A stretch of 64,000 nt of DNA from Xestospongia bergquistia (taxonomy: Eukaryota; Porifera; Demospongiae; Haplosclerida; Petrosiidae): the NCBI GenBank assembly GCA_963965975.1, contig OZ014414.1, forward strand, positions 1,178,001 to 1,242,000, in the 5' to 3' direction. Under the pieces are notes generated by a model. It was not told the origin of the DNA and made no database searches. It saw nothing but the letters and a program-made list of their open reading frames with translations. Positions within the stretch are counted from its first letter, which is position 1. The number at the start of each line of letters is the position of its first letter. The translations under genes were made by a program, and so were the position numbers. Of the stretch, positions 1,543-63,922 are shown one piece after another.

Positions 1543-2398
1543 ACTGACTGCAATCTTATTCTTAATCACTGCAAAATAAATCTGAGAAACTCTGATTAAA
1601 CCACACGATGTTCTGAACAAATCAGTTGCTCCCTTTTAAAGAAATTGTGGTTCACGCCTCCTTAGTTAGTTAAAATAAACCTACATGGGTCTACATGTGT
1701 GGGCTGTTATTATGAAGTTTATAACAGATTAGTTCCAGATTACTTTTTGGCTTCTTTTGGCTTTATACGTAGTGAGTTACACTAGTTTTATACATATTGA
1801 TTTAGAGTAGTTTTGGCTTTGTGTTAACCCAGTATTGGAGCTACATCCTACTAATAGATATATAACAGTTGCTTCTTTTTGCAATCCTATTAGTACATAC
1901 TGTTGGAGAAGTTAAAGGATAAAGCAATCAGGCCTCTTTTTAAACTTGACTGCTACTGCTATTTACTACTTGGCTCATTATACCAAGGCATGACTTCATT
2001 AGAAGCCATGAGTGGATACAATTTTAACATAACTAACCTAGGTGTGGTTGAAACAGTATTGGTCAAAGTTTCAATTATTGGACATACCGCAAAAGATTAC
2101 TTTTTGGCTTTTTGTTTGCTTTATACATATTGATTTAGAGTAGTTTTGGCTTTGTTTGATTCAATATTGGACTTTATCCTATTGATAAATGTTTGGTAAC
2201 TCATTTTATATACTATAAGTGTGATAGTGTATCCATGGAGCATTACATGTTTGTTTTTATCAAACTGAAAACTGTCTTTAATGATTTTCTTATATAAAAC
2301 TACATTAAAACTAGATGGTCTTTTCTTTAAAAATTTGCTTATTAACTTATTTCTCATATACTAACATTATAGGTGCTGTAACTATATATTACTTACCT

Positions 2399-2630
2399 CA
2401 CTGTAAAAATTAATATGTCATTGTAACAACTAATTTTTAGCTTACATGGATGGATTACTATGGAATATAGAGTTCTTGTGAATTACTCACTGTGTAATTG
2501 GTTGGTGTGTTGTACTTCACATACCAACCAATTATACAATGAGTAATTCAGATAAATTCTATATTCTATAGCAGATCATCGATGTGAAGTACAAATTAGT
2601 TGTTAAAATAACATATTAATTTTAACAGTG
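2399..2630. mobile_element. Fold-back MITE, copy 1
   Basis: It begins cactgtaaaaattaatatgt and ends acatattaattttaacagtg, which are inverted complements of each other. Inside, a second inverted pair (gaattactcactgtgtaattggttggt with accaaccaattatacaatgagtaattc) makes the whole element fold back. It has no coding capacity. Copies at 2932-3163 and 6166-6339 show it is a dispersed family. Confidence 0.8.
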
Positions 2631-2931
2631 TAGTTGTTTTGTGAAGTCTACAGTTTAACTTCACACAGGGTAGTATCAAATTAACACTATAATGTGAATA
2701 CACAAAATTAGTACATTTGTAATAACAACTTACTATTTTGTAATAATAAAAATTGGCTTAGCTAGGAACACACAATTAATAATCAGAAAAAGGAAAAAAT
2801 TAATTATTGGTGGATAACCTAAAGTAAACCATTTAATGGCTTATTCACATGCAGTCATGACATGTTCTCTGATTCTTCTTGAAAAAAACGAACAAGAGTT
2901 TTACAGTTGTGTGGATATAATTCTAGTTCTA

Positions 2932-3163
2932 CATTGTAAAAATTAATATGTTATTTTAACAACTAATTTGTAGCTTACATGGATTGATTACTATGGAATA
3001 TAGAAATCATGTAAATTACTCACTGTGTAATTGGTTGGTATGTTGTACTTTACATACCAACAAATTATACAATGAGTAATTCAGATAAATTCTATATTCC
3101 ATACCAGTTCATCGATGTGAAGTACAAATTAGTTGTTAAAATAACATATTAATTTTAACAGTG
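2932..3163. mobile_element. Fold-back MITE, copy 2
   Basis: It has the same length and order of internal palindromes as the element at 2399-2630, with scattered substitutions and the same aattttaacagtg right end. The two copies lie in the same orientation about 530 bp apart. Confidence 0.8.
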
Positions 3164-3293
3164 AGCTTGCATGGCACATATAATGTTTGCAATGTTTAAT
3201 TAAACAATGAATAATTCCCTTTGATGTTAATGAAAAATATAAGGTATCTATCTTTTGATGGATAAACATTAGGTGTCCACTTTATTGATAGAT

Positions 3294-3348
3294 AGGACCA
3301 GTTGACATAGTGATACATGTCAGGACCAGTTGACATAGTGATACATGT
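3294..3348. repeat. Two tandem copies of a 28-bp unit
   Basis: The unit aggaccagttgacatagtga tacatgt(c/a) occurs twice head to tail with almost no divergence. Confidence 0.75.
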
Positions 3349-3438
3349 AAAACAAATAGTCCTGTATATTGTTAGGCTTTCTACAGGAAATAGAGCATGA
3401 GGGAAGTCTTTATGCTCTGTATCCAGTAGAAAACTTCA

Positions 3439-3781
3439 ATGCAACGTTTAAATAATTTAGATAATTTTGAGCCACAAGATCAGCCATGCAAAAAATAGTT
3501 GTTGTATGTTCTGTTTATAGTCATAAATCAAAATTACATGACTTAATTAGTCTATATGAGAATGTAAGCTCAAAGTAGATCTACAATGTGTATAGCAGCT
3601 ACTTGACATATACATAATAAAATAGAAAATTAAAACAAAATAAAATGTCATACTGCAAATTCAATGTTACGATGTCCTATCAAATAAACAACATTAAAAA
3701 ATAAAAATAAAAAAAACAGTAAAAAAATTTATTGTGCAAATAATTATAGCCATGTTGCCCAGGAGTACTCGTCAAACTGTA
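3439..3781. repeat. Right copy of the exact 343-bp duplication
   Basis: Identical to 1-343. It spans the terminal codons, stop and 3' flank of the membrane-protein gene ending at 3744. It is probably the source copy, because here the exon continues intact. Confidence 0.9.
3728..3733 (-). promoter_or_regulatory. Polyadenylation signal AATAAA
   Basis: A canonical AATAAA on the minus strand begins 10 bases after the stop codon at 3744-3746. It is compatible with a very short 3' UTR. Confidence 0.5.
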
Positions 3782-6700
3782 GAATAAGAAAGAAAGCAAA
3801 GCCAAGGATAAATGCTCCACCCACAACTAATGATGGCGATATAGGCACACTGCTAAGCTTGGCCTAATAAAAGAAAGAGCATAATTATAATGATTAGATG
3901 AAGGCTGAAGATACTTAGTAATCATATTGTTTTTTTTATGTCAATCTCTACATTCATCCATTCACATTTAATATGAAGGGATTCAATGACAGGAATGTAT
4001 ACTTGAATGATTTAATTATCTATGAGAAATATAATATACCTTCAATTCTACATTGCTACAGTAGGTCACAAACGAGTCTAAATCTAGTTGTGGTGTGTCC
4101 TGATATTGAAAAGGACGGGCTCGAATCTCAAGAGCAGTCTCCTTTATCTGGCTTCCAAAATGACTTACTCGAGCAGCCTTAAAATAATGCAGGGTTGTTA
4201 AAATTGATACATAAATGTAATAAAAGTAAATAGCATACTATGTTACCTGTATAAGAGGTACAAAAAGCCAGATTGTCCACTGAATAGAAGAGAGAAAACC
4301 AGTTGTAGCAAGTAAAGGTAATTGATCATGGTCATTGTTCAATACTTGAATACCATACAATGCTAAAGAAAAGAATAACAAACTTTAACATGGAAGGGAT
4401 ATAGATGTCACAGTTCCTATAGCAATATCTCTATTTTTCATCTGTCTAATATCGAACATTATTGTATAAGCAGTTTCTGTCAGTGATTGCTTACATAATG
4501 TACTTGCAATAAATTCTCAATGCAAACTTCAACTAATATATGGACATATTGTTCAATAAGCACAATTTACATTATTACTTAACTTTGTCTTAGCATTACC
4601 AAAGAAAAAAGCCTGGTTATTTTCGTTATGGTATAATCCTCTAAATGCATCCACAGAAATTTTACTGTATTGAAATGTTATGAATGATATATTATTAATG
4701 TTATGGTCTTACATAACACTGAAGAATAAAGAAAGATAAACATCATACTACTCATAGCTCTTGAAAGATGACCATTGATTTTCTTGAGAGAAATGCGAGC
4801 ATCATTTACTGCCTACATTAAAAAATGACATAATTATAATAGAAGATTCTAGATATTGCAAAAGGTTATATACGCTCTTTTGGCGAATTTGTTTTAAGTC
4901 TAAATTTTGATAAAATATAATATACTTTTAATTATCTATCATTAAAATAACAAAGCATGATTACACTGACTATACCTTTATAGCATCCTCAATATTCCAA
5001 TTAGCCGGTTTTGTTAGCGTACGAGAACAAACTCCCTTAAAAAAGTATACCATCAGTTGACATTGCATGGCATAATTAATTACTACTGCAGTATATGTAA
5101 CATCAAAGATGATGAAACCAAAGATAGAAATAGTAAACAAAGTGATTTTCTCAGAAAGAGAGACACTATCAATGTAACAGAGGATGTGTAAGTATTTATC
5201 TTAAGTCAAAGTTGTCATCAATGGTTAGATGACTGGATAATTATACTGAATAATAATAATAGCATATGACTTTGACTGTTCAATTTTCAATCAAATGCCC
5301 TAATGTTAGTTGTGTGAATGAATAGTTAAGCATGCATATAATTGGTATATGTGATACTAAGTATTTTATTTAATGTGTACATTTATTTACTTTCCAATAA
5401 ATTCAAATTCGATCTCCTTGTATGTCATATGATTAGCAAATAATCGCAAAATGTTAAGCCCCAAAGAGCAAAAAATCCATATGATACCCACGACAAGTGA
5501 GAACCTAGACATAGACAACAAGAAATTTTGTTATGAAAAACTATAACTATATAAGGTTAATAAATAGAACTCTTACAATAAGCACCAATATCAGCAAATT
5601 GAGTAAATATAACTAACATTAAAGACTTTGCCAGATTTGTCGAAAGTCTGCCTTCAATAGTAAAAAACACCTACAGTTAAGAAATGTTCGTTAACGTTTA
5701 GTTAACAATTTGTGGTCTGTATTTATTTACTTTCTGTGCAAGCGTTGACAAATCTTCTGGTTGTTTGATTCTAAATATATACAAGCCATAACAAAAGGCA
5801 GAGAGCAGTAATATATCCAGTATAATAAACTTTGAGACAAAATGTTTGTAACATTTAATGTGATATATACCATTTAAATTAGCATGTAGTGGTACTAGCA
5901 CCTGTAGGTAAAAAATCAAAAAAGTATTGTAACAAGTTATATTTTCATATACGTATGTTCTTTATAAAAATGCTGTCACAAAGGCTGTAGTTATCTATCT
6001 AAATAATGAGTTTATTAATAAACTGACCATGCTTTTCCTCACTGATTATGTCCTGTATTTGTCTGTCATAACTTACTATAGTCTTAAATTTACATTGTTA
6101 TATTAAGTAGCTTCATTGTCTGAATTTATTAGACTATACACTCTGAGATCATTTCTTAGCATTTTCACTATAAAAATTAATATGTCACTAATTTTAATAT
6201 ACCTGACATGGATGGAATGTTGATTTTTTATGAATTACTCACTGTATAGTGAGTAATTCACACAAATTCTAGATTCCATAGTAATCTATCCATTTATAGT
6301 ACAAATTAGTTGTTAAAATAACATATTGATTTTTACCATTTTGTTATATGATATTAAGTATAATCTGATCGTGTACCTATTTCAGAATATAACAAAAGGT
6401 ACAGAACAGCAATTTATACAGTTGCATGTGGGATGACACCATTACTATTGTAATGTTAAACCAATGACCTTAAAACAACCAGTCAGACTTAACAGTATCT
6501 CTATGTCATACATTACCATGCATGATAAGCTGTTAATTTCATACATGCATATCTATCATAACTTATTCATTCATAATCCATCCATCTATGGATATGGTTA
6601 GTATCAACTTACTATGTCTCTCTCAAAACATAGTAGTATTTGTGTTACACAGGATCCAAGCAACAACAAAATTAATACAGGTGGCCACAACAGCTGAAAT

Positions 6701-7552
6701 AATTCACATGTTCTCCGAAGCCACACTCTTGTCATTATGCAAGAAGGAAGATCAATTTTCCGCCAACCAATCTGAAAATAACAAATGGTAAAAATCATTT
6801 TAAGAAATTAGCTTGTCTTATGATGTGTTGATTGTTTAGTGTGCTGTTTTGAACACTTTGACATACTACAAAACATAATTAACATGAATACATACTAAAA
6901 TTATAGAATTACATGTACTTATCAGATCAGTTTGTGGACAAACTAAATGTGATTTTCTTACTATAATCAAAAATATTGTGTATGGTAGTAATATACAGTT
7001 AGTTTTCTTAACTATTGCTCCCATAGAATCATCGCTCTGTGTGAAGAACAACAGAATACAAAATGTCATACTATAATCTTTGTACTAGATATTTAATTTG
7101 TGATACTCTTTGACTAGATGTAGTGTGTGTAAACTATTATGGCTTACTTCCACTATTGTAAATGCATTACAAGTGGTATCTTCTCTTTGTGAAAGGTCAT
7201 CTAACTGGGAAGAATCACAAACTATAATTACTCTTTCTACTTCACGTACATCATGTTAAATTCAATATATGATGGTCCCATGATCAAAACAATATAAACA
7301 AATCTTCCCTTTAAATTGTCAATTTAGAACATGTATTTTATCATTGATATAATGTTTTATAAATAACAACTATATACATTGGCCAATATTTTATCATGTG
7401 AACATAGTTTTATAAAAACATACTAGTGCTGATGTGTCAGAATATGATGCTTCAGTTTGTGAAGACTTAACCAGACCACTTTTTATGTCTTGAGTACTAG
7501 CATAATCATGGTGGTGACTGTTAACTATTAATGATTGTTCAGCTAAATCCAT
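3744..7552 (-). CDS. Multi-pass membrane protein, candidate gustatory-receptor-like (GRL) receptor, paralog A
   Basis: Twelve exons: 7424-7552, 7148-7204, 7084-6962, 6771-6613, 5901-5731, 5670-5618, 5504-5391, 5165-4976, 4812-4713, 4362-4247, 4177-4040 and 3863-3744. The phases close to an intact 489-aa ORF. A polar N-terminus of about 90 residues is followed by roughly seven hydrophobic segments (about 131-151, 185-203, 231-250, 275-310, 345-366, 378-402 and 455-480). Recognisable blocks are GWRK, YIFRIKQPEDLS, TAVVINYAMQCQL, KPANWNIEDAIK, SLKKINGHLSRA and the end FAFFLILQFDEYS. Placement of a hydrophobic-x5-QF block in the last membrane segment, after a short AKL..VPISPSL linker, resembles the TYhhhhhQF signature of insect gustatory receptors (7tm_7). 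The first two signature residues are not conserved, so the family call is an inference. The tandem paralog at 8320-11557 has the same intron positions, except that paralog A carries one extra intron (7085-7147). The alternative is a sponge-specific 7TM family. Confidence 0.7.
6166..6339. mobile_element. Fold-back MITE, copy 3 (shorter)
   Basis: It shares the left end cactataaaaattaatatgt, the central palindrome gaattactcactgtatagtgagtaattc and the right part acaaattagttgttaaaataacatat with the elements at 2399 and 2932. It lies in the intron 5902-6612 of the candidate receptor gene. The right tip is degraded (ttttaccatt instead of tttaacagtg). Confidence 0.7.
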
Positions 7553-8319
7553 GGTAAAATCTGGAGTTTAATATATGAAAAATACTATGAAAACCTAATT
7601 TAAAATTGATATTATGTCTATTTAATTAAACATATATATACTTTGACAACTCGTTAAGGATAATAAAGAATAATATAATACCACACATATAAGTAATGTT
7701 CTGGCTATTCATGAATGACATAATAGATACTCTAATGCATATTTAAGTTATAAGGTTTAGAATTTAGGCTCTAAGGTATAAATTTCTCATTGAAGTATGG
7801 AATCTTGTCACATATAAATAGCAATTGCTTGTTAGCTTTTAAAGGCCTAGGCTGTGCCTCTTGTAGATAAACACATAAGTGAAATAACTTCTTTGTATTA
7901 TTAACAAACATTTGACATACCTCTATTTTGTCTTTGTTAATAGATGAACAGCAACTGTAGCTCCAATGATAAGACCTATAGCCACTCCCACATTTCTGTA
8001 TATTATTAATGTTACTTTATTCATTGTACATTGTACATTGAATACCAAACAATATAAATTCTATTGTTATGCTATATATGCTATAACTTAAGTAGATTGT
8101 CTTGATATTTATAAGCAATATAACCACAAAATAAAATGCTGTCTATGTCTGTTGATCATGAATAAATAATTAAATTAAGTGATTTGCTATTGTCATAAAA
8201 ATCTTGTTTCATATAAACTCCAAAAAAATGTACTTAGGCAATAATAATATAATAAAATTAGAATAATAATATAAAAAACATATAATAAAAATTTTTAAAA
8301 TATTATCTTTTGCAAATAA
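7553..8319. other. Intergenic region with one exon-like island at 7921-7995
   Basis: On the minus strand, 7921-7995 is bounded by a good acceptor (aatatacag) and a good donor (gag|gtatgt). One frame is open across all 25 codons. Another frame encodes a strongly hydrophobic stretch (VGVAIGLIIGATVAVHLL) followed by a basic tail and a stop. It could be a 5' UTR exon of the receptor starting at 7552, where ctccag just upstream of the ATG is a plausible acceptor, or a remnant exon. Nothing else was seen here. Confidence 0.3.
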
Positions 8320-11300
8320 TTATAGCCATGTTGCCCAGGAGTACTCGTCAAACTGTAGAATAAGAAAGAAAGCAAAGCCGAGGATATATGCTCCACCCAC
8401 AACTAACGATGGTGATATAGGCACACTGATAAGCTTGGCCTAATAAAAAAAGAATATAATAATTTATTGATATATTTAAAGAAGCCATTTAGCCTTCGAT
8501 CTGTTCTGTTGTTATGCTATTAATATATTTATCCATCCACCATTAAACTATTTATTTGTTTCTTACAACAGACTGATATTAGCAGAACTGCATCTCAAAA
8601 TGATTCTATGTTCATACCTTCAATTCCACATTACTACAATATATAACTAAGGAATCCAAATCCAATTGTGATGTATCTTGATATTGAAAAGGGCGTGCTC
8701 GAATCTCAAGAGCAATTTCCTTTATCTGGTTACCAGAATAAGTTACTCTAGCAGCCTTTAAAATTGGTCATGAAAGGAATACAATATTATTCAATGAATA
8801 TTTTGTACCTGTATGAGAGGTATGAAGAGCCAGATTATCCACTGAATAGCTGAAAGAAAACCAGTTGTAGCTAGCAGAGCAACTTCTTCATGGTCAATCT
8901 GTAATACCTGGATACCATATAATGCTAAAGAAAGAACATTAATAGGTGAGAAAAAACCTATACTGGCTTCACAGGTACAAGGACAACTAGATAATATCAT
9001 TATAGTATAATCCGCTAAAGTTTAATAGGACTTATAAAGAAATGTGTAGAAACTCAAACTATTTCATTGAGATCCTATATTATTAATGTTATAGTCTTAC
9101 ATAACACTGAAGAATAAAGAAAGATAAACATCATAGTACCCGTAGCTCTTGAAAGATGACCATTGATCTTCTTAAGAGAAACGTGAGAATCATTTATTGC
9201 CTACAATAAAGAGGGCAATGGTCAGCCAAGTAATGAATAGACATGTAATCACCATCATGTATATATGCTTCGATATTTTCTAACCTTTATAGCATCTTCA
9301 ATATTCCAATTAGCTGGTTTTATAAGTATTTGAGTACAAATACCTTTGAGAAAGTATACGATCAGTTGGCATTGCATGGCATAATTAATTACTACTGCAG
9401 TATATGCAACATCAAAGACAACAAAACCAAAGAGAGAAATTGCCAACAATGTGTTCTTGCCAGCTAAAGACAGACTATAACATAAAAAACATAGTAACTT
9501 CTTTTTATTTTATATTTTATTATAACTTCAAGATTAGTGACTATACCTAATGATACAGTCAGGTAATATCACATCTCCTTACTATTGCTATGTTGATTAC
9601 ACAATTGGAATATCTAGTGTATTCTAAATAACTACAAGCAGCACCAAGTTGTTTTAGCCAATGCTGTAAATAATGACTAATATATAATTGTGTAATATCT
9701 TACTTTATGAATCCTAATTCTACATCATGTTGCAAATGATGAGCAAATAATCTCAAAACATTGATTCCCTGAGAGTACAAAATCGACACTACACCAACCA
9801 AAAGTATAATACTAGAGAAAAAAGAATGATGTGTCACTAATAGTATAAATTAACTTAGGACTATAACTACCCATTAATTACCACTAGCCCCAAAATAGTA
9901 GTACCATATGAAAAACATTTGACTTAGAATAATATTACATAATTAATATTACTAATTATTAATTAGTAATATTACAGGGTTTAATAATTATAAAGTTATT
10001 AAGTGTTTATTAAAATGGTACAGTTATTATATATCAAGGACTGCATACATCAATCAAATATACTCACTGACCGTATAGATCTTGCCAGCTTTTTTGATAG
10101 TCCCTCTTCTATAGCACAAAACACCTAGATTTAGTTATAACGTAACTGTTAATAATAATACACTGTGAATTACAACTAAAAGTGTATAAGTAGAAAAGTC
10201 TGACTCATGCAAACAATAAAAAATCACATTTAAAATCTTAACCGTTCATATTGTTGCTATTCTAGTTGTATGTGTATTGTGACTTGATTACTTACTTTTA
10301 ATGCAAGTGAAGACAAGTCTTCTGGTTGTTTTATGCGAAAAATATATAAACTATAAATGTAGGCAAACAATAGTAGCATGTCCAGTATTATATATGAGGA
10401 AACAAGATGGTCTATACAACTTTTATCATATGTGCTAGCATTGGTGCTATTTAAGGCATCTAGTTGTATCTAAGAAAAAAAATCATATAAGTGACTATCA
10501 AGTTATAATTTCATTGCTTAAATGTTTTATAAATAAGTTAGTAAGTAACATCTTTAAAAAAGCCTTACCTTCTTCTGCTAGCATTTATTCATTTATTAAT
10601 TATTAACTTACTATGTCTCTGCCAAAGCATAGAAGTATTTGTGTTACACATGATACCAACAAGAGTATAATTAGTATTGTTGGCCAAATCCACTGTAATT
10701 CACACATTCTTCGAAGACTGGATCTTCTAATGATCCAATGAGGAAGCTCAAACTTTCGCCAACCAATCTAGAAAATTAGAATATACAGTAATATTTGTCT
10801 GCGACAAAACAACTTGTTAGTGTTAAGAGGGCATCACAAGATATTTGAAGAAATAGTTAATTAAGCTTACACAAAGCAAATCATTGATCACATCAATGTT
10901 AAGCTGCTTTAGTATGTATTCCTCTTTTTTTTTGGTTAAATCAATATGGTTCTTAATTATATACATATATATGTTTGTATGCATGTATAATGTAACTGCT
11001 TACAATAGTTAAAAATATTTCATAAGGCAGTAGTATATGCTTTGTTCTTTCAAGTATGGCCCCCAATGGATCACTTTGAGGAAACTGGATGCGAAGAGCA
11101 ATACAATAAGAAGAACACATATATTGTACCTCTACTATAGTGAAACCCTCATTTCTAGCATCAGTATCTTTTTCTTGTAGAATTTCACGATTCTAGACAA
11201 TATCATATAGAAAATAAAGTAATGAATATACATAATACACAATATATGTAATCCTAATACAATAAGTTAAACTTCATAACTACAATATAAACTAGTGTTG

Positions 11301-11557
11301 TTAAGATATAGGACTAAAATAAGCTTTGTCAAGTTTATTATACAACATAGTCTAACTTATAGGTAGATTACTAACTGACTGTACTGAATATAAACAATGG
11401 TAGCTCCACCTAAGAGAGGTCTTACTTGTTTGTAAAAAGGTGAGGCTTCACTTTGGGCAGATTGATTAATGAAGCTACTGTAGTGTTCTTGACCAGTACT
11501 AGTACTTCCATATTGCTGTTGATGCCGGTCCTCTAGCAGTAATATTGTGTCAGCCAT
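8320..11557 (-). CDS. Multi-pass membrane protein, candidate gustatory-receptor-like (GRL) receptor, paralog B
   Basis: Eleven exons: 11426-11557, 11004-11192, 10612-10767, 10296-10469, 10072-10124, 9704-9811, 9285-9474, 9101-9200, 8809-8924, 8618-8755 and 8320-8439, giving an intact 491-aa ORF. The start MADTILLLEDRH is the only in-frame ATG near the first exon. Exons 5 to 11 match the last seven exons of the neighbour at 3744-7552 in phase, and nearly all in exact length (53, 190, 100, 116, 138 and 120 nt; the sixth differs by 6 nt). This indicates gene duplication with conserved gene structure. The hydrophobic profile is the same: about seven segments, a variable N-terminus, near-identical blocks YIFRIKQPEDLS and KPANWNIEDAIK, and the terminal FAFFLILQFDEYSWATWL. 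The N-terminal halves are much more diverged than the C-terminal halves, as expected for receptors whose C-terminal bundle forms a conserved core. The GRL assignment rests on the terminal QF motif and topology and is tentative. Confidence 0.7.
9944..9974. repeat. Near-perfect AT-rich palindrome
   Basis: The left arm taatattactaatta pairs with the right arm taattagtaatatta around a 1-base centre. It lies inside the intron between 9811 and 10072 of paralog B. No function is evident. Confidence 0.6.
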
Positions 11558-11921: not shown

Positions 11922-14900
11922 TTATATTAGATTTTTATAGTCTTCCTCTGGTGTTGATTCTTGGATCTTACATTGAGTTGAAACATTTTCATTATTTCCT
12001 TTTGTTAAAAAAGGTCTACGAAGTTCAACTTCGGCTCCTTGGTTAGAGTTTCCCTTACTGCAGCACCACTTACGTATCTTGTTCAACATTTCATGATATC
12101 TTTCAACATATAATCCAATGTAAGCAAGCACAGTCCAAACAAATGGAACCCAAACCAATACAGTCTGTACTACATATCCCCATGTAGACAATGGGATACC
12201 AATAACAGTATAATAGTACTGGTACATACTTAAGGCTATTATTATCGCTAGAAGAAAAAGTGACAAGGCTTCCACAACATTAGGATCAACATACTTGTAG
12301 GTGTTTTTCTTATAGGGTCGGATAACAATGATAGCTATTCCACCAAACATACAGAAGATAAACTGCATCATGTACTGAATAATGATATTCCAAGCTATCA
12401 TGTAGGGTAAAATAATAAGAATTCGTAGCATAAAAAAGCCACCTGCTATCCAGCGAAGATCATAAAGACTCCAAGATGTGTATATAGCAATTCTACAGTA
12501 TCTTGACTTTTTTTGTTTATAACTACAGAGGGTGGTTGATGTGCAGCAGTAATACTCATATCTCCAACAAACTCCACAACTACCATCTTCATTTTTTCTC
12601 TCTTTGCAACGTAAATGTGTGTCTGCTATGTTATCCAGAGTTATGTCAAAATCATCTTTACCATCACGAAACTCTTTCTGAAACTGATGAAGTAAATGAT
12701 TAAAGAAACCAGCGTTATTTTTAGGATCATTTGACCTAAAACAGAATAAAAAAATGGGAACCATCACCACAAATGGAACACCAATCAATAATGCAGCAAT
12801 CAAATATGGATAATATTCAGAACTGTTATATTTAATGTTTCCATCTAAGTACAACACTTGGCCACTGTTATTTGAAGAAGTGTCATATGGACCTTTGAGT
12901 GGCACAGGAGTCAACAAAAAACCAGTTATGACAGCCAGTTTAGTATAACTCAAAAGGATGAAGGTAGCAAGGGCATTAGGGGCATTTTTTAATTTTGAGG
13001 CACATTTTCGAATGCATCCATCTCGTTTGTCTTGACAATAAATGATGCCTACTGCTATAACAAATATCATAGGTAAGAATGCAGAAATGTATTCAATAGC
13101 AATGATAGTAGCATAGTGGATGTCTTTTGATATGCAAAAATTCAACCATATATTTCCGAAGTTCAAATTGTATATGTCATATACAAAGAAATACATTGCT
13201 TCAATAATTTCTGGAGCTTTCTCATTGATATCAGGAATATTTTTCAAAGGGATGATATCATCACCATCCAAGGCTATAACACTTGTTACCATTTGTCCAA
13301 ACAATATGGGACCATGTAGCAAACCAGAAGTCAGAGGTATGTCAACAAAGAATATACCAAAAATAAATAAAAATGGAAGTATCAAATCAAAAATTATAAA
13401 CAATACTATGCCTGGAGCAACAGACGTACACTTAACACATTTTATTTGATGCGTATTAATTGCAGGTGCATACCCATCAATACAACTACTACATAGAACA
13501 CCCTTGTTATATGGACCACATAATTGTCTATCAACAATTTTTAATGAGTCATTCAGCTTAATATAACCCTCATAATGTCCCTCAATTCCAAAGTTACAAT
13601 TTTTACAATGACCAACCACAGTGTTGTTCCTATCAAAAGGAGATTGTCCTATCCAGAACCCACGTAAAAGTTCAGCATGAAATTCAATATTGTGACATTT
13701 GACATGATTGTTAAAATTACCTGTACATCTGCATCCTCCATCAACAAGAGCAAGACCAGGAGGACACTCTAGGAATTCAACATGTAATTCAGTTTGAATA
13801 ATGTTTTGACTGACTGTATCAACTGCTACAGTACCAGCGTTATCTTGATCATGTTCAGTTTTATACAGAACAAATTTATCATTATATGTGTAACTATATT
13901 GTTCATCAACTGTTACACTATCTGATGTGTTATAAATGTGGAGAACTAGATCTGAGATAACATCTTCGCCTTGATCATCTGTAGCAGTAATATTCATTTT
14001 TGTTGGTTTACCAGGTATCACTGATATATTAAGTGGTAAACCATTGTCTACAAACATGGCTGCATCAGTAAGAATTTGGGTTTTACATACAGCTATTGTT
14101 GTGTTAAAATCATAAACCCAATGTGTTTCATTTTCAGTATTCCAACAAAATACTTCATCAACTTTGCTTTGGTTTGAAGTTAGAGGTCCAAACCCTCGGC
14201 CTAATACACAAGGTAGTATTGATGTAGCATATATTGATGTGGAATTTCTACTGCCTTTGTTATTTGTAAAATTAAACAATGTCTCCCAATGTGTTGGACT
14301 AGTCATAATGTCATAGTATTGTATGAAACAATTCATTGAAGTTTTTCGAACCTGAACACCCAGATACTCGGCATAGATTGCGCCACCCAGATTAGTTGCT
14401 TTGTTGCTCTCAAATTGAAAAGTTGTGTTTTTGTGAATTTTAATAAAAGACCCACTATACAAACCTATTGCTCCTCCATTACGTCCAAGATTTTGAAGAA
14501 ACAAAGCAGTAGTATTCACACCAAAAAGCATCTTACTTCCTGCTGCTACTAATGCAGTTCCATCATAATTATTGGCAAAAAGAACGAACTTGTAAAAATA
14601 TACTGTGATACCATTGACGTACATAGCACCAGCTCCAAGTTGCTTTCCAAGAGAGTCTTTATATTTCACAGAGTTATCCTTGATAATAGTGTTTGTCATA
14701 TTAACTTGGTACAAAAGGCCTTCGCTAACTCCATGAAATGGAGTGAGATGAATAGCAGCACCTATTTTGGCTGTATTGTTGAAATAATTACAATTGACCA
14801 ACACCAGTGTATTAGCACTACTACTGTCACTAATGGAACCCTGACGTGTAGTGATGTAAAATAATGCACCTCCATTTAGTGCATAGTTGTCAACAAAACT

Positions 14901-16001
14901 AGCATTCTCTAACAGGAAACTGCTGCTTGAAATGTGTCCAAAGTTTGGTAAAAAGAAATAGCTAAAATAAGCCCCTCCTCCTGACTGCTGAGCTGTATTG
15001 CTACTGAAAACATTGCCATCTGTTACTACAACACTGTTGTTATAGCTGTAATCGTGCATGTCTACATAAATGCCACCACCAAACACAGCTCTGTTATCAT
15101 TAAAACTACAATTCTCTATAGTAATGTGGTTATTACTAGCATTGCCCTTAAAGAATACAGAGAGCCCACCACCTTGACCAAATGCTACGTGATAGAATTT
15201 AAATGGAAGGACATATATTTCTGATGAAATTTCATTCTTGGCTGTATTCCTAATAAATTGACACCCAGTTATTATATATTCAGAATTAGAGACCGAGGTA
15301 GTTGGTAACTGGGTTGTTTCGTCATTGCATGCTGTATCACCAGGAAAACAATATGGAAACTCAATGTATACACCACCACCATTATTAATTCCATATTGCC
15401 CAGGGTTATCAATAAAGACACTGTTTGTAATATAGTTTGTACCAAGTGTGTAATAAATCTGAACAGCAATACCTAGACTATTTTTTATTGTGACGTAGTC
15501 TAAAGTAATAGAGGAACAGCCTTCAAAGTATAGAGCAACATTAGAGGTTAAAAACTTAATATCTTCAGCGTGATTATTGAAGTCATAACTTGTGCTAGGA
15601 TGCTCAACACCACACCCATTAAAAATTACACCACTGATGGTAATAGCCTCAGATTTTATAAATGTTAAACCAGCACCAGGCTCTCTGCAAACAATCTCAA
15701 CAACTCCTTCACCATCCCTTTTTATAGTAATATCTTTTCCACTGTTATTAAAAGTAGTTCCTGGTGATGCTAGTAGTTCGTACTGACCTTGTTTGATATA
15801 CACAGCAACAGACGACCCATTGTTAATACAGTAAATAGCATAGGTAAGGTTCTTACAAGGACTTGATTCTGTGCCACAGCCTTCATTATATGTACCATTA
15901 TCATCTACATAGATGATTGTAGACTGAGTGTTCGCAGAACATACCCATGACAGCACTAGAACAAGTAGATGGAGCAGAACTTTTCTATTGCTGATGAACA
16001 T
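11922..16001 (-). CDS. Giant secreted beta-helix / multi-pass membrane protein, paralog 1
   Basis: Uninterrupted 1359-aa ORF. The first Met opens a signal peptide (residues 1 to about 25, LLHLLVLVLSWVCSA). Residues about 30-640 carry repeated GG-small-hydrophobic turns (GGGLSVFF, FGGGIYVDM, GGGAYFSYF, NGGALFYI, GAGAMYVNG, NGGAIGLY, LGGAIYAEY) with N-rich strands between them. This is the pattern of right-handed parallel beta-helix, pectin-lyase-fold or POMP-like repeats. A Cys-rich module follows at about 745-857, starting CPPGLALVDGGCRC and including LLRGFWIG and GVLCSSCIDGYAP. From about 858 to 1290 there are multiple hydrophobic helices, with RPYK followed by a membrane segment near the end, then a cytoplasmic tail. 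It is heavily supplied with NxS/T sites. A second copy follows in tandem at 16956-21242. Function is unknown; a sensor or adhesion receptor, or a channel-like protein, is possible. Confidence 0.85.
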   Translation of the reverse strand: MFISNRKVLLHLLVLVLSWVCSANTQSTIIYVDDNGTYNEGCGTESSPCKNLTYAIYCINNGSSVAVYIKQGQYELLASPGTTFNNSGKDITIKRDGEGVVEIVCREPGAGLTFIKSEAITISGVIFNGCGVEHPSTSYDFNNHAEDIKFLTSNVALYFEGCSSITLDYVTIKNSLGIAVQIYYTLGTNYITNSVFIDNPGQYGINNGGGVYIEFPYCFPGDTACNDETTQLPTTSVSNSEYIITGCQFIRNTAKNEISSEIYVLPFKFYHVAFGQGGGLSVFFKGNASNNHITIENCSFNDNRAVFGGGIYVDMHDYSYNNSVVVTDGNVFSSNTAQQSGGGAYFSYFFLPNFGHISSSSFLLENASFVDNYALNGGALFYITTRQGSISDSSSANTLVLVNCNYFNNTAKIGAAIHLTPFHGVSEGLLYQVNMTNTIIKDNSVKYKDSLGKQLGAGAMYVNGITVYFYKFVLFANNYDGTALVAAGSKMLFGVNTTALFLQNLGRNGGAIGLYSGSFIKIHKNTTFQFESNKATNLGGAIYAEYLGVQVRKTSMNCFIQYYDIMTSPTHWETLFNFTNNKGSRNSTSIYATSILPCVLGRGFGPLTSNQSKVDEVFCWNTENETHWVYDFNTTIAVCKTQILTDAAMFVDNGLPLNISVIPGKPTKMNITATDDQGEDVISDLVLHIYNTSDSVTVDEQYSYTYNDKFVLYKTEHDQDNAGTVAVDTVSQNIIQTELHVEFLECPPGLALVDGGCRCTGNFNNHVKCHNIEFHAELLRGFWIGQSPFDRNNTVVGHCKNCNFGIEGHYEGYIKLNDSLKIVDRQLCGPYNKGVLCSSCIDGYAPAINTHQIKCVKCTSVAPGIVLFIIFDLILPFLFIFGIFFVDIPLTSGLLHGPILFGQMVTSVIALDGDDIIPLKNIPDINEKAPEIIEAMYFFVYDIYNLNFGNIWLNFCISKDIHYATIIAIEYISAFLPMIFVIAVGIIYCQDKRDGCIRKCASKLKNAPNALATFILLSYTKLAVITGFLLTPVPLKGPYDTSSNNSGQVLYLDGNIKYNSSEYYPYLIAALLIGVPFVVMVPIFLFCFRSNDPKNNAGFFNHLLHQFQKEFRDGKDDFDITLDNIADTHLRCKERKNEDGSCGVCWRYEYYCCTSTTLCSYKQKKSRYCRIAIYTSWSLYDLRWIAGGFFMLRILIILPYMIAWNIIIQYMMQFIFCMFGGIAIIVIRPYKKNTYKYVDPNVVEALSLFLLAIIIALSMYQYYYTVIGIPLSTWGYVVQTVLVWVPFVWTVLAYIGLYVERYHEMLNKIRKWCCSKGNSNQGAEVELRRPFLTKGNNENVSTQCKIQESTPEEDYKNLI

Positions 16002-16456
16002 AGCAGCTGTCTTAAGAACAACACAGGACTTAGCTATAGATAAATCTGTAAAAAAGATATAAGATTCCTTGCAAGTATATTAACAGCACACATGAGCAAG
16101 AGCAATTGCACAGTTATTAATTCTAAGTTTATAATTACACTTATGCTTAGTGAACTACTAGATCATACCATAGCATTCAGTACAAATACTTAAGTAATGA
16201 ATGCCTTTCCTACACATAAGCTTATTACATAGTTTTAATGGCATCCATACAACATCAAACTTACCAAGCTCTTTTCAGTCATCTTTGCACACTATTACAT
16301 AAATTAGTTGTTTATGTAGGTATGAATTTCATAGTAACAGCCCTTGTCCAGCTACATAAACAGTCAATTCCATAGGACATTTTTACATTAGTAATGAAAA
16401 CTGTACATGATGTTTAATTTATTGTATCAGATATTTTACCATGTACTTGCAACCTG

Positions 16457-16955: not shown

Positions 16956-19900
16956 CTACGATGTAGTACTATTATAGTTAGCTCTTGGAGTAGTCTTATT
17001 CCTTTGATTACCAAAGCCACTGCTATGACTTAATTCCATGCCATCTTCCTCACTGAGCAAGTGTATATTATCTTGCATTCTTTGGAGTGAGTTGGGCCGA
17101 TTTCTATTTCGAGCTTGCTCTCTTTGGATTGCTGTGGTCCCATTAGTATTTTGACCTTGCTCTCTTTGGACTCTTATATCACCCTCCCGGGTGCATAAAG
17201 TGTCTTTATAACGTTGAAGAAGCAATCCAATGTAAGCACATAAAATCCAAATTAGTGGTATCCAAAGTAAAATTGTTTGCATTACATAAATCCATGTAGA
17301 CAACGAGATACCAACGTTAGTATAATAGTACTGGTACATACTGAAGGCTATCATTAATGCAAGAAGAAAAAAAGATGATGCTTCAATGATATTACGATCA
17401 ATAATGTTTGTCTTGTATACACGATCATTGCTACCCTTCACTACTTCTAAAGCCTTTCTTTTATATGGATGCAATATTACAACAAACATTCCAGCAACTA
17501 AACAAACTGTGAACTGCAGCATATACTGTATGATGACATTCCATGCTAACATGTATATAGAAACAATAAAAAGTCGAAGAATAAAGAAGACTGCAGCAAA
17601 CCATCGCAAATCATTCCAATTCCAGGAAGTGTAACAAGAAACACAGCACCATTGTGATCTTTGTTGCTTGTAGCTAAAAATTTCAGTTACTGTACAACAA
17701 TTGTACTCATATCTTATTTGGTTATCAATGTGTACATTGCAGCAAAGGTCTTGGCGTATATCACAGCAAGTGGCATTAGGGTCACTTTGCCTCTCAGGAC
17801 AACATGGTGACAATCTCACTGGAATGCTGTTTATTACTTCTCCATTCAGATTATTATGCATAATAATATCAAAATCATCAGGACCATTTCGAAATTCACG
17901 TTGAAATTGATCTAGTAAATGATTAAAGAGACCACCATATTCACTTGCTTTGTTAGACCGACAACAAAAACAAATTAGAGGCACTAACAGAAGAAATGGC
18001 ACACCAAATATTGATGCTATTATAATGTAGGATTTGTGAGGAAACTGAATACTGCCATCAATATACATAACTTCATTACTTCTACTGGATAGAGAGGTAT
18101 CATTAGCAGATACAAGAGGCACAGGGGACATTAAAAAAACGGTTATGAGGGCCACTTTGGTGTAACAAAGAAGAATAGAAGTGGCTAAAAAGTTTGCATG
18201 GTTATTGATTTTCTTCTTCTTGATCAGTTTACAAAGGCACGATTCAGAGCAGCCATGTGGAATCCTACAACAATTACAGGAACAATAGTAGAAGATAGCA
18301 ACTACTACAACAAAAATCATTGGTAAATAACCAGACAGGTAATGTATGGCAATAATGGTAGCATAGGGCATATTTTTCGATAAACAATACTTCTGCCATG
18401 GCATTCCAAACTCAAGATTGAATATGTCATAGATTGTTGTATAGATTAACTCAATGACTCCAGGTGCTGCTTCGCTGATGCCAGGAGTATTCTCATAAGG
18501 AATGATGTTTTCAGCATCTAATGTTATTACGGTAGTAATCATCTGACAAAAGAAAATAGGCCCATGTAATAAGCCAGAGTTGAGTGGTACATCAAAGACA
18601 TATACTAAGCCAAGAAATATAAAAGGAAGAATGATGTCCAGTGTTATAAAAACAAATACACCGACAACACTAGAATCACATTTGACGCAATCCAAACTGT
18701 CAAAGTTAATTGCAGGGGCATACCCTTCATAGCAACTACTACAAAGTACTCCACCACGATTATCACCACACAGCTGATTCTGCACTTGTTGGAGATCATC
18801 TCCTAGACTAAAATGACCACCTTCTTTCCCATAGTTGCAATCTCTACAATGAGCAACAATTGTGGTATTAGTGAAGGGTGATATACCAATCCAATAGCCT
18901 CGTAAAAGAGAAGCATTCAGATGAGAAGGGTCACATAACAGACGTTTATTAAAATCACCTGTACAACTGCATTTACCAGTACCTTGTTTTAGTTCTAAAC
19001 CAGGAGGACAGTCCTTAAAATGAACTGCAAGTTTTGCTCGTAATGGATTTTCAGACATTGTGTCAATTGTGACTGATACATCATCCAAAGAGCTTGTCTT
19101 TGAAATAATAATATCGTCAGTAGAGATATAGTTGTAGCGCTCATCCACATGTGCTCCATGGGAACCATAGGCATGTAATACTAAGTTGGTGGTCACATTA
19201 TTTCCATGATCATCAATTGCAACAATGCCTATTTCTTGTTGCCTTCCTGGTACAATGTTTTGGTGAATGGTCCCATTAAGAAAGGAAGTAGCATCAGTTA
19301 GAATTTGGTCACTACATGCTTCATATGCCACACTTGAATTATAAATCCAGATATCAGTAAAATTATTCCAACAGAACACTTCCTTTTTCAACTTTTTATT
19401 TAGGATGCCATAGGCTCTGCCCAAAAGACAAGCATTTGTTGAAGTAGCATATATAGAGTTTGGCTTCTGGTTAGCTGCATTGTTAGTGAACTGAAAAAAT
19501 GTTAACCAACTGTTAGGATTCTTTGTTATATCAAAATATCGAATGAAACAGTTTAAGGATGTCTTTTGAAGATGAGAACCAATGTATTCGGTATAAATTG
19601 CACCACCAAGATTGACAGCTGAATTCTCAATAAACTCAAAAGATGTGTTTTCTTGAACCTTGATATAACTTGAACCATATAAAGCTATAGCACCTCCATT
19701 ACGTCCGGTATTATTTAAAAATAATACACTTGTGTTGGACAAAAACTCTAACTTGGATCCCATAGCAATTAAAGCTGTTCCATCATAATTGTTAATAAAT
19801 TCTACAGACTTGTCAAAAGTTATCGGTACTTCATCGACATACATTGCCCCAGATCCCAGTGGTGTACCAAGTGAATATTTATACATTACTGAATTTTCAA

Positions 19901-21242
19901 TAAAGGAACAGTTTGATATTATGATCTCATGAATGATACCTTCACTAACAGGATGAAAGCATGAAACATCTAATGCTGACCCATACCGTGCATTGTTGCT
20001 GATCCATATACAGTTTGTGAAAGTTATTTCATTAAAATTGTCCTCGTAAACATGTGACTGTCTTGTGGACATAAAAGATACCCCGCCACCAAAAAAAGCA
20101 TTGTTATTTTCAAAAAGCACATTATTAAATGTTAATCTTCCACTGGTAACATTACCAAACTGCTCTGTAAAACGATAAGCTAAGAATGCTCCCCCTCCTG
20201 ACCTTGTAGCTGTATTTGCTTTAAAAACATTACCACCCATTAAAACCACTGTGTTGTTATTACTGTGATCTTGCATTTCAACATACAGCCCACCTCCATA
20301 AACAGCTGTGTTGTTGATAAAACGACAATTCTCTAGGGAGATATAGTTATTTTTAGCATGACCTTTAAAGAATACTGAAAGTCCACCACCATGACCAAAT
20401 GCTATATGATAGTATTTATAAGGTAGGACAAACCTTACAGATGATGATGTACTGTGAGCTATGTTTCTTATAAAGCGGCAACCACTTATTATATATTGTG
20501 AATCAGAGACATATGTCATAGGCACCTGTGCCACTGTGTTATTGCATAATATATTACCAGGGTAACAGTATGGAAACTCGATATAAACCCCACCACCTCC
20601 TTCCATCTCTTGATTCCCAGAATTATCAATGAACTCACTGTTAATGATGTAGTTTGTGCCAAGTGTGTAATAGATCTGAACAGCAATTCCAAGACTACTG
20701 TTGATCGTAATGGAGTCTAAAGTGATCATTGAACAGCCTTGGAAGTAGAGGGTAGCATTAAAAGTTAAAAACTTAATGCCATCAGTTTCATTGTTAAAAT
20801 CATGACTTGTGCTATAGTGTTCTGCACCACACCCATTAAACACTAGACCTCTAATGGTAACATTTCTGGACTCTATAAATGTCAAACCAGCACCGATTTC
20901 TCTGCAAACGATTTCTACAACCCCTTCACCATCTTTTTCCATAGTTATATTCTCTCCATTATTAAATGTCATTCCTGATGACGGTAATAGTTCATACTGA
21001 CCTGGCTTGATATATAGAGTAACTGATGACCTGTTGTGTATATGTTCAATAACTAAAGTGAGGTTCTTACAAGGATTTGATGGACCTTCTGTGAGACATT
21101 TCTCATCATCAGTGCCATTAGTAGCTACATAGACAACAGTACTAGACTGAGTGGCTGCAAAACATACCCACAAAAATAACAGCTGTGTCAAGAGGTGGAG
21201 TCGGACAATAGAGTGCATTTCTGTTGCTAGCTTAGTATTCAA
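16956..21242 (-). CDS. Giant secreted beta-helix / multi-pass membrane protein, paralog 2
   Basis: Uninterrupted 1428-aa ORF, co-linear with the gene at 11922-16001 along its whole length. The first Met at 21242 is followed by a second at about 21218 that sits closer to the hydrophobic signal sequence (LHLLTQLLFLWVCFAATQ), so the true start may be the second. The beta-helix-like ectodomain again shows GG-turn repeats (GGGVYIEFP, GGGLSVFF, YGGGLYVEM, GGGAFLAY, NGGAIALYG, LGGAIYTEY). The Cys-rich module (CPPGLEL...C.C, LLRGYWIG, GVLCSSCYEGYAP) precedes membrane segments from about residue 852. The cytoplasmic end is longer than in paralog 1 and rich in Arg, Asn and Gln. Extra Cys clusters occur between membrane segments (around plus-strand 17640-17810). 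Being single-exon amid intron-rich genes suggests either retroposition of an ancestor or a naturally intronless family. The biochemical role is unknown. Confidence 0.85.
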   Translation of the reverse strand: MNTKLATEMHSIVRLHLLTQLLFLWVCFAATQSSTVVYVATNGTDDEKCLTEGPSNPCKNLTLVIEHIHNRSSVTLYIKPGQYELLPSSGMTFNNGENITMEKDGEGVVEIVCREIGAGLTFIESRNVTIRGLVFNGCGAEHYSTSHDFNNETDGIKFLTFNATLYFQGCSMITLDSITINSSLGIAVQIYYTLGTNYIINSEFIDNSGNQEMEGGGGVYIEFPYCYPGNILCNNTVAQVPMTYVSDSQYIISGCRFIRNIAHSTSSSVRFVLPYKYYHIAFGHGGGLSVFFKGHAKNNYISLENCRFINNTAVYGGGLYVEMQDHSNNNTVVLMGGNVFKANTATRSGGGAFLAYRFTEQFGNVTSGRLTFNNVLFENNNAFFGGGVSFMSTRQSHVYEDNFNEITFTNCIWISNNARYGSALDVSCFHPVSEGIIHEIIISNCSFIENSVMYKYSLGTPLGSGAMYVDEVPITFDKSVEFINNYDGTALIAMGSKLEFLSNTSVLFLNNTGRNGGAIALYGSSYIKVQENTSFEFIENSAVNLGGAIYTEYIGSHLQKTSLNCFIRYFDITKNPNSWLTFFQFTNNAANQKPNSIYATSTNACLLGRAYGILNKKLKKEVFCWNNFTDIWIYNSSVAYEACSDQILTDATSFLNGTIHQNIVPGRQQEIGIVAIDDHGNNVTTNLVLHAYGSHGAHVDERYNYISTDDIIISKTSSLDDVSVTIDTMSENPLRAKLAVHFKDCPPGLELKQGTGKCSCTGDFNKRLLCDPSHLNASLLRGYWIGISPFTNTTIVAHCRDCNYGKEGGHFSLGDDLQQVQNQLCGDNRGGVLCSSCYEGYAPAINFDSLDCVKCDSSVVGVFVFITLDIILPFIFLGLVYVFDVPLNSGLLHGPIFFCQMITTVITLDAENIIPYENTPGISEAAPGVIELIYTTIYDIFNLEFGMPWQKYCLSKNMPYATIIAIHYLSGYLPMIFVVVVAIFYYCSCNCCRIPHGCSESCLCKLIKKKKINNHANFLATSILLCYTKVALITVFLMSPVPLVSANDTSLSSRSNEVMYIDGSIQFPHKSYIIIASIFGVPFLLLVPLICFCCRSNKASEYGGLFNHLLDQFQREFRNGPDDFDIIMHNNLNGEVINSIPVRLSPCCPERQSDPNATCCDIRQDLCCNVHIDNQIRYEYNCCTVTEIFSYKQQRSQWCCVSCYTSWNWNDLRWFAAVFFILRLFIVSIYMLAWNVIIQYMLQFTVCLVAGMFVVILHPYKRKALEVVKGSNDRVYKTNIIDRNIIEASSFFLLALMIAFSMYQYYYTNVGISLSTWIYVMQTILLWIPLIWILCAYIGLLLQRYKDTLCTREGDIRVQREQGQNTNGTTAIQREQARNRNRPNSLQRMQDNIHLLSEEDGMELSHSSGFGNQRNKTTPRANYNSTTS

Positions 21243-21966
21243 GAAGCGGTACCTGTGTATTTTAGAAGAGCAAAAGCTAAAGTTAACTTCACAAAGTAAT
21301 GCATTAATCTACCATTATACTACATTAGTCATATCTTGTAACATTACAAGTTACTGTTACTGTTATGTGACTGTCACATGAATAGAACACAACAATAAAG
21401 TTACAACATCACTATAGTTTTTCTATTTGGTAACAAGCTTGTAATAAGGTAGAATTAATGTATGTATTTGCTGAACAAAGTCACGCTAGTACTGTAAGCT
21501 ATGAATCATATTACAATATCACATGAAAGGGAGTCCAAAATAATATGGACTACTTTTCCAATTTATTAATAAAAAGTAGTTAAAAATTTCACTCAGCTAG
21601 GTAACTTTCTGTCTATTATAACCAGAAGTAATTCATTGATATTTAAAAGCTAGCAGGGTCATATGTGTTATACTAAACTATAGACCATATGCCTAAAACA
21701 TAACAGTTAATATTACTTAAATGCAGTACTGTATTTGTTCAATACAACACAATTCTTTTGAAACTATGAAACAATTTATTTTTAAGCAGATTCTGCATGT
21801 AATTTTGCCATGCAATTACCTCATGACATTAAACCCTCTGTGCTAACACTGACTTCGTAAAAACAGTTAAACACATATAGATATTAATGCCATTGTCATT
21901 TTATTGATTCTGTTTTATAAGTAACCACAAAATTGACATAAATTTTATCAATTTGTTAAACTTACT
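21243..21966. other. Intergenic spacer with polyadenylation signal of the eIF4E-like gene
   Basis: This 724-bp AT-rich stretch lies between two minus-strand genes. An AATAAA on the minus strand at 21900-21905 lies about 60 bases past the stop of the upstream gene (21967) and is its likely polyadenylation signal. No other feature was recognised. Confidence 0.5.

Positions 21967-51647: not shown

Positions 51648-63922
<12,275 letters not shown>

Follow-up and report, generated by a model that had tools for sequence, protein, structure and literature searches.

Tandem genes for seven-helix membrane proteins in the sponge Xestospongia bergquistia and their possible kinship with insect gustatory and odorant receptors

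Results

The window analysed here, a stretch of 64,000 nucleotides from the genome of the sponge Xestospongia bergquistia, carries two minus-strand genes, A and B, which lie head to tail and exactly fill the span 3744-11557. Gene A (7552-3744) encodes 489 aa in a hand-built model of 12 exons (7552-7424, 7204-7148, 7084-6962, 6771-6613, 5901-5731, 5670-5618, 5504-5391, 5165-4976, 4812-4713, 4362-4247, 4177-4040 and, with the stop codon, 3863-3744), and gene B (11557-8320), also modelled by hand, encodes 491 aa in 11 exons (11557-11426, 11192-11004, 10767-10612, 10469-10296, 10124-10072, 9811-9704, 9474-9285, 9200-9101, 8924-8809, 8755-8618 and, with the stop codon, 8439-8320). GT-AG borders are present at all 21 introns (11 in A and 10 in B), and both reading frames are free of internal stops. 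The models were cross-checked with a custom splice aligner, in which each locus was queried with the protein of the other paralogue, and the same exons were recovered in both genes except for details around exons 1-2. The two proteins are about 65% (64-65%) identical, with dN 0.248, dS 0.699 and a dN/dS ratio of about 0.35 (NG86), values that argue for purifying selection and therefore against a chance reading frame. The preliminary description of this DNA, made from the letters of the sequence, had reported two intact multi-exon proteins of about 490 aa, as these lengths, introns and substitution rates bear out. It had also reported a variable N-terminus and a conserved C-terminal half, in good agreement with an identity that rises along B from 38.8% (40/103, residues 1-110) through 56.6% (90/159, residues 111-270) to 80.5% (178/221, residues 271-491).

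Equivalent parts of the two proteins are encoded by corresponding exons. A basic N-terminal flank and TM1 are found in exon 4 of A (6613-6771, minus strand) and in exon 3 of B (10612-10767, minus strand), where the flank reads IGWRK...RRSSLRRM. Exon 9 of A (4713-4812, minus strand), where the similarity to insect Gr43a is highest, encodes the last part of inner loop 2 and the greater part of TM5. The same parts of B are encoded by its exon 8 (9101-9200, minus strand; INDSHVSLKKINGHLSR...), which was aligned with Gr43a LADSHESLGK.... The last exon of A (3744-3863, minus strand) carries TM7 (LVVGGAFILGFAFFLILQF) and a 9-residue tail and is preceded by a phase-0 intron (3864-4039), and the last exon of B (8320-8439, minus strand) likewise carries TM7 (LVVGGAYILGFAFFLILQF) and a 9-residue tail behind a phase-0 intron (8440-8617).

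A search of the genome (146 Mb in 21 contigs) revealed at least six related loci besides A and B, giving a family of no fewer than eight. A truncated 3' copy of A (L031, C4:1172500-1178200, at 2353-4278) lies just to the left of the window and is 96% identical to A in DNA over 1.9 kb; its 5' half was sought with the splice aligner and was not found, only the 3' half being recognisable. The term "tandem" used in the preliminary description is right. Another locus, near 5.95 Mb of contig C4 (L032, C4:5952500-5957500), is a disrupted-looking copy with exon-like stretches and an in-frame stop. Member C (492 aa, without stops) is located near 6.90 Mb of the same contig, and members D, E and F are all on contig C9. 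No additional locus was found with F as query, and contig C5 gave one weak ninth match (E 0.25; L037). The family alignment comprises A-F, six of the eight loci, the truncated and the disrupted copies being omitted and D, E and F being shortened at the N-terminus, where they are uncertain; in this alignment the identity to B is about 64-65% for A, 56% for C, 52% for D, 34% for E and 31% for F.

Other features were observed in the window and the genome. Next to each other on the minus strand, 11922-16079 and 16956-21308 each encode in a single frame a protein of roughly 1400 aa. The two proteins share 50% identity; in both, the start resembles a signal sequence, the ectodomain is rich in repeats, and some eight hydrophobic segments make up a block at the C-terminal end. 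Neither matched Pfam at E<=0.001. On the plus strand, 53347-60917 contains exons that match cation-independent mannose-6-phosphate receptor (CIMR) repeats (E 5e-46 and 7e-36), and opposite them lie open frames for 233 and 221 aa (57237-57938 and 58521-59186, minus strand), which end in ...YNWFLW/YGWFLW and have no Pfam match. Elsewhere in the genome, cathepsin L/silicatein-like exon arrays (L076, C9:3183900-3187300; L077 and L078, C9:1502500-1522000) carry active sites with Cys (GSCWAF, GSCYAF) and with Ser (HSSYAF) close together; with an approximate silicatein query, Ser stood in place of Cys in one of the eight active-site matches in such an array. As silicateins are, to our knowledge, confined to sponges, such an array suggests a sponge genome.

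All seven hydrophobic segments, which the preliminary description gave as about seven, were found by hydropathy in each of the aligned members A-F, in agreement with 7TMIC proteins, for which seven helices are expected within about 350-500 aa. An automatic seven-helix picker misplaced the helices in A, in C and in some references, so that the charge and loop counts for the family were redone on aligned positions. The loops on the side of the N-terminus carry 24-28 K/R residues and the other loops 4-9 in all six members, a bias that according to the positive-inside rule places the N-terminus inside and the C-terminus outside; A-F are therefore predicted to be N-in, C-out. The same charge pattern was obtained for most of nine GR/OR references, and the opposite one for rhodopsin (3:13) and ADRB2 (5:24). 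Sequons carry no weight for the topology, since outer loops have them but so do loops of B, D, E and F that are presumed to be inner. Loop lengths are nearly constant in the family, with 54-56 residues in inner loop 2, 8 in outer loop 3 and 61 in inner loop 3, and the C-terminal tail has 8-9 residues and no K or R. In B, D, E and F the spacing is 27-33 between TM5 and TM6 and 78-82 between TM6 and TM7, compared with 25-39 and 67-85, respectively, in the nine GR/OR references, among which the BmGr9 sequence is incomplete. By hand count, the distance from the DSH that closes inner loop 2 to the F of the QF pair is 145 residues in B and 147 in Gr43a.

Direct searches gave no relevant match. A Pfam scan of the six members at E<=10 rendered no relevant match (the best chance match had E 0.09), including none to 7tm_7 (PF08395) or 7tm_6 (PF02949) and none to PHTF1-2_N (PF12129); with the same library 7tm_7 or 7tm_6 was detected above the cut-off in all seven insect references scanned, Orco scoring below the 7tm_7 cut-off. 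A PDB sequence search with B gave four chance matches to histones, none of them relevant, and one with the family profile gave no matches. Searching the genome with Pfam 7tm_7 and PHTF1-2_N yielded no match, but control genomes were equally empty, so that this search shows nothing, and a search of the genome with Gr43a, run without a positive control, found no match either.

For the profile-profile comparison, 411 core columns of the six-member alignment were matched by hhalign to an alignment of nine GR/OR sequences, with a local score of 39.4 (E 2.7e-4, probability 42%). This score was reached by none of 200 controls shuffled in 6-column windows and none of 200 shuffled in 12-column windows (the best scored 38.3); this kind of control is lenient and does away with helical periodicity. 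Reversing the alignment gave 21.3. The global alignment paired the helices in order and placed DSHVSLKK over Gr43a DSHESLGK and QF over QF; its score was reached by 1/200 and 0/200 of the window-shuffled controls and by 8 of 25 rotated alignments, for which reason helix order was not judged by it. Among single-pair alignments, 16 of 54 were in TM register as against 8.7 expected by re-pairing (P 0.0045, the pairs not being independent).

The contribution of individual members to this similarity was uneven. With a GR/OR HMM, B came out on top among 18 sequences, at 10.6 bits and with an alignment spanning TM1 to TM5; C and D followed, and A, E and F were at the level of decoys. When single sequences were compared with 35 E. 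coli open frames with at least five hydrophobic segments, B (39.5) and C (24.5) exceeded the two best decoys (24.2 and 24.1), A (23.2) and D (22.3) fell below them, and E and F were at background. A profile of A-D exceeded the best of 39 membrane decoys with all 12 variants of the reference alignment, at scores of 25.7-44.5 and probabilities of 2-71%, the closest case being 25.7 against a decoy at 25.4, and the six-member profile did so with 10 of the 12. The scores also vary with the reference set: GR sequences alone gave 22, OR sequences alone 16, which is decoy level, and a set of twelve 32. A first set of five sequences rendered a probability of 0.7% (P 0.078), although the register was right. 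In the opposite direction, the family HMM was used to score the references, their reversed versions and decoys; rhodopsin ranked highest of 24, and the GR/OR sequences did no better than reversed ones. Against the nine GR/OR sequences, a profile of two GPCRs reached 32.3, so that membrane-helix make-up inflates such scores; the family profile scored 15-18 against GPCR sequences. The similarity between the family and GR/OR proteins therefore appears weak, above most controls yet in the twilight zone. The profile-profile search that had been proposed as a check thus gave a mixed answer, with an in-order match that beats most controls when the nine-sequence set is used, and nothing with the five-sequence set or in the family-HMM direction.

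The last seven introns have the phases 0,2,2,0,1,0,0 in all six members, and the final one, of phase 0, directly precedes the exon for TM7, which is about 39 codons long. Of the last four introns, three are of phase 0 in every member, and the one before TM7 is related to a position described for Gr genes: insect Gr genes have a phase-0 intron directly before the TM7 exon, according to the accessible part of PMC9998090. This agreement, at the level of intron phase and TM7 exon, may be due to chance, since each gene has 10-11 introns and most of them are of phase 0.

The TM7 motif of the superfamily, (T/S)Yhhhhh(Q/K/E)(F/L/M), is considered diagnostic but not definitive in the portion of PMC7746228 that was available. 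The corresponding segment FAFFLILQF of A and B has two of the four fixed positions. It had been presented in the preliminary description as the end of the proteins, and the segment is indeed there, but DEYSWATWL comes after it. It had also been likened to TYhhhhhQF, a parallel that extends to the QF of A and B and not to the TY, which is absent from all six members. The segment ends in RF in C, EF in D and GF in E, and in F it is unrecognisable, so that two fixed positions are kept in A, B and D, only the final F in C and E, and none in member F. As the likeness of FAFFLILQF is not conserved within the family, it deserves little weight on its own.

Discussion

We favour the view that A and B are tandem paralogues in a family of at least eight loci, which most likely belongs to the 7TMIC (GR/OR) superfamily. 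This membership is plausible but unproven, the sequence evidence being suggestive only. The topology, the helix spacing, the intron before TM7 and the weak but ordered profile alignment all agree with GR/OR proteins, and to that extent the GR-like reading of the preliminary description stands; relevant Pfam or PDB matches and the full TM7 motif are missing. These same absences, together with twilight-zone profile scores that shift with the reference set and a TM7 motif that is not conserved among members, speak for an orphan N-in seven-TM family unrelated to GR/OR, for example of transporters or lipid-handling proteins, whose likeness in spacing would be due to chance or convergence; basic inner loops and hydrophobic helices are presumably common to all membrane proteins. 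Against the several features that agree with GR/OR, we regard such an orphan family as less likely, though it is the chief rival.

It could also be the case, as a sub-case that overlaps with the favoured reading, that the family belongs to a 7TMIC branch that is not sensory, for example GrlHz or PHTF, and plays a general part in cells instead of serving chemoreception. In the accessible part of PMC9998090, GrlHz is reported across Holozoa, so that a sponge member would be expected, and is described as broadly expressed in flies; nothing on ligand or tissue points to sensing in the sponge family. We consider this improbable, in view of the lack of a Pfam PHTF match in any of the six members and of the tandem duplication, which would be in keeping with what is often seen in receptor families. 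A divergent G-protein-coupled receptor, a class with seven helices and many representatives in sponges (282 initial Pfam candidates in Amphimedon, as given in the accessible part of PMC4302439), is most improbable and was rejected on topology, as the N-in charge pattern is opposite to that of rhodopsin and ADRB2, and it also conflicts with the lack of a GPCR Pfam match in all six members, the short C-terminal tail devoid of K or R, and the low scores of the family profile against GPCR sequences.

If A and B do belong to the 7TMIC superfamily, the cytosolic ends of TM4-TM6 and the start of TM7 would form a subunit-contact (anchor) domain through which four subunits would assemble, and TM7 would line a cation pore. 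A small molecule bound among the helices might then open the channel, which would let the cells of an animal without neurons sense dissolved chemicals. A more tentative proposal is that sponges have a small, duplicating family of GR/OR-type ligand-gated channels, too diverged to be found by family searches; the class would then predate neurons and would have been present in the ancestor of sponges and other animals.

The preliminary description stated that GR-like proteins had been reported missing from at least one demosponge, which is plausible. Himmel et al. 2023 may include sponges, and Robertson 2015 may treat them as well. GR-like receptors are named for Cnidaria, Placozoa and Bilateria, with sponges unmentioned there, in the accessible parts of PMC7746228, PMC9998090 and PMC11526382. 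Among the matches listed in our literature searches, none reported a GR-like receptor from a sponge, and the accessible parts of PMC4650134, PMC2924276, PMC7570057, PMC12716839 and PMC12187929 contain nothing on sponge GRs. If the kinship with GR/OR holds, the type of channel used by insects for smell and taste exists in a nerveless animal, and should structure confirm it, the family would add to a known superfamily a new, highly divergent member from a significant position in the animal tree. A verified sponge member would provide a concrete set of genes with which to ask how chemicals are sensed without neurons, and would supply a missing piece in the evolution of GR/OR channels.

A comparison with known systems places the family at different distances from each of them. 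PHTF proteins, for which a 7TMIC fold like the one considered here has been proposed, differ in an N-terminal region and loop 1 that take up more than 300 residues, as stated in the accessible part of PMC9998090, and in the Pfam match that A-F lack. The cnidarian and placozoan GRLs and the GrlHz of Holozoa would be the expected evolutionary neighbours, their size and topology class being similar by literature description alone. Insect ORs and Orco (7tm_6, PF02949) share with A-F the topology class, the short outer tail and the helix spacing, but the OR-only reference set scored no higher than decoys. Unlike insect GRs of the Gr43a/BmGr9 type (7tm_7, PF08395), the A/B family gives no Pfam score, lacks the TY in TM7, shows no significant pairwise similarity, and has a longer conserved N-terminal part with IGWRK and a C-terminal DEYSWATWL. 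It resembles that type in the seven helices, the N-in orientation predicted from charge, the TM5-TM6-TM7 spacing, the DSHxSLxK-like stretch that ends inner loop 2 and, in A and B only, the QF that ends TM7, and it resembles insect Gr genes in general, as they are described in the literature, in the phase-0 intron before the TM7 exon.
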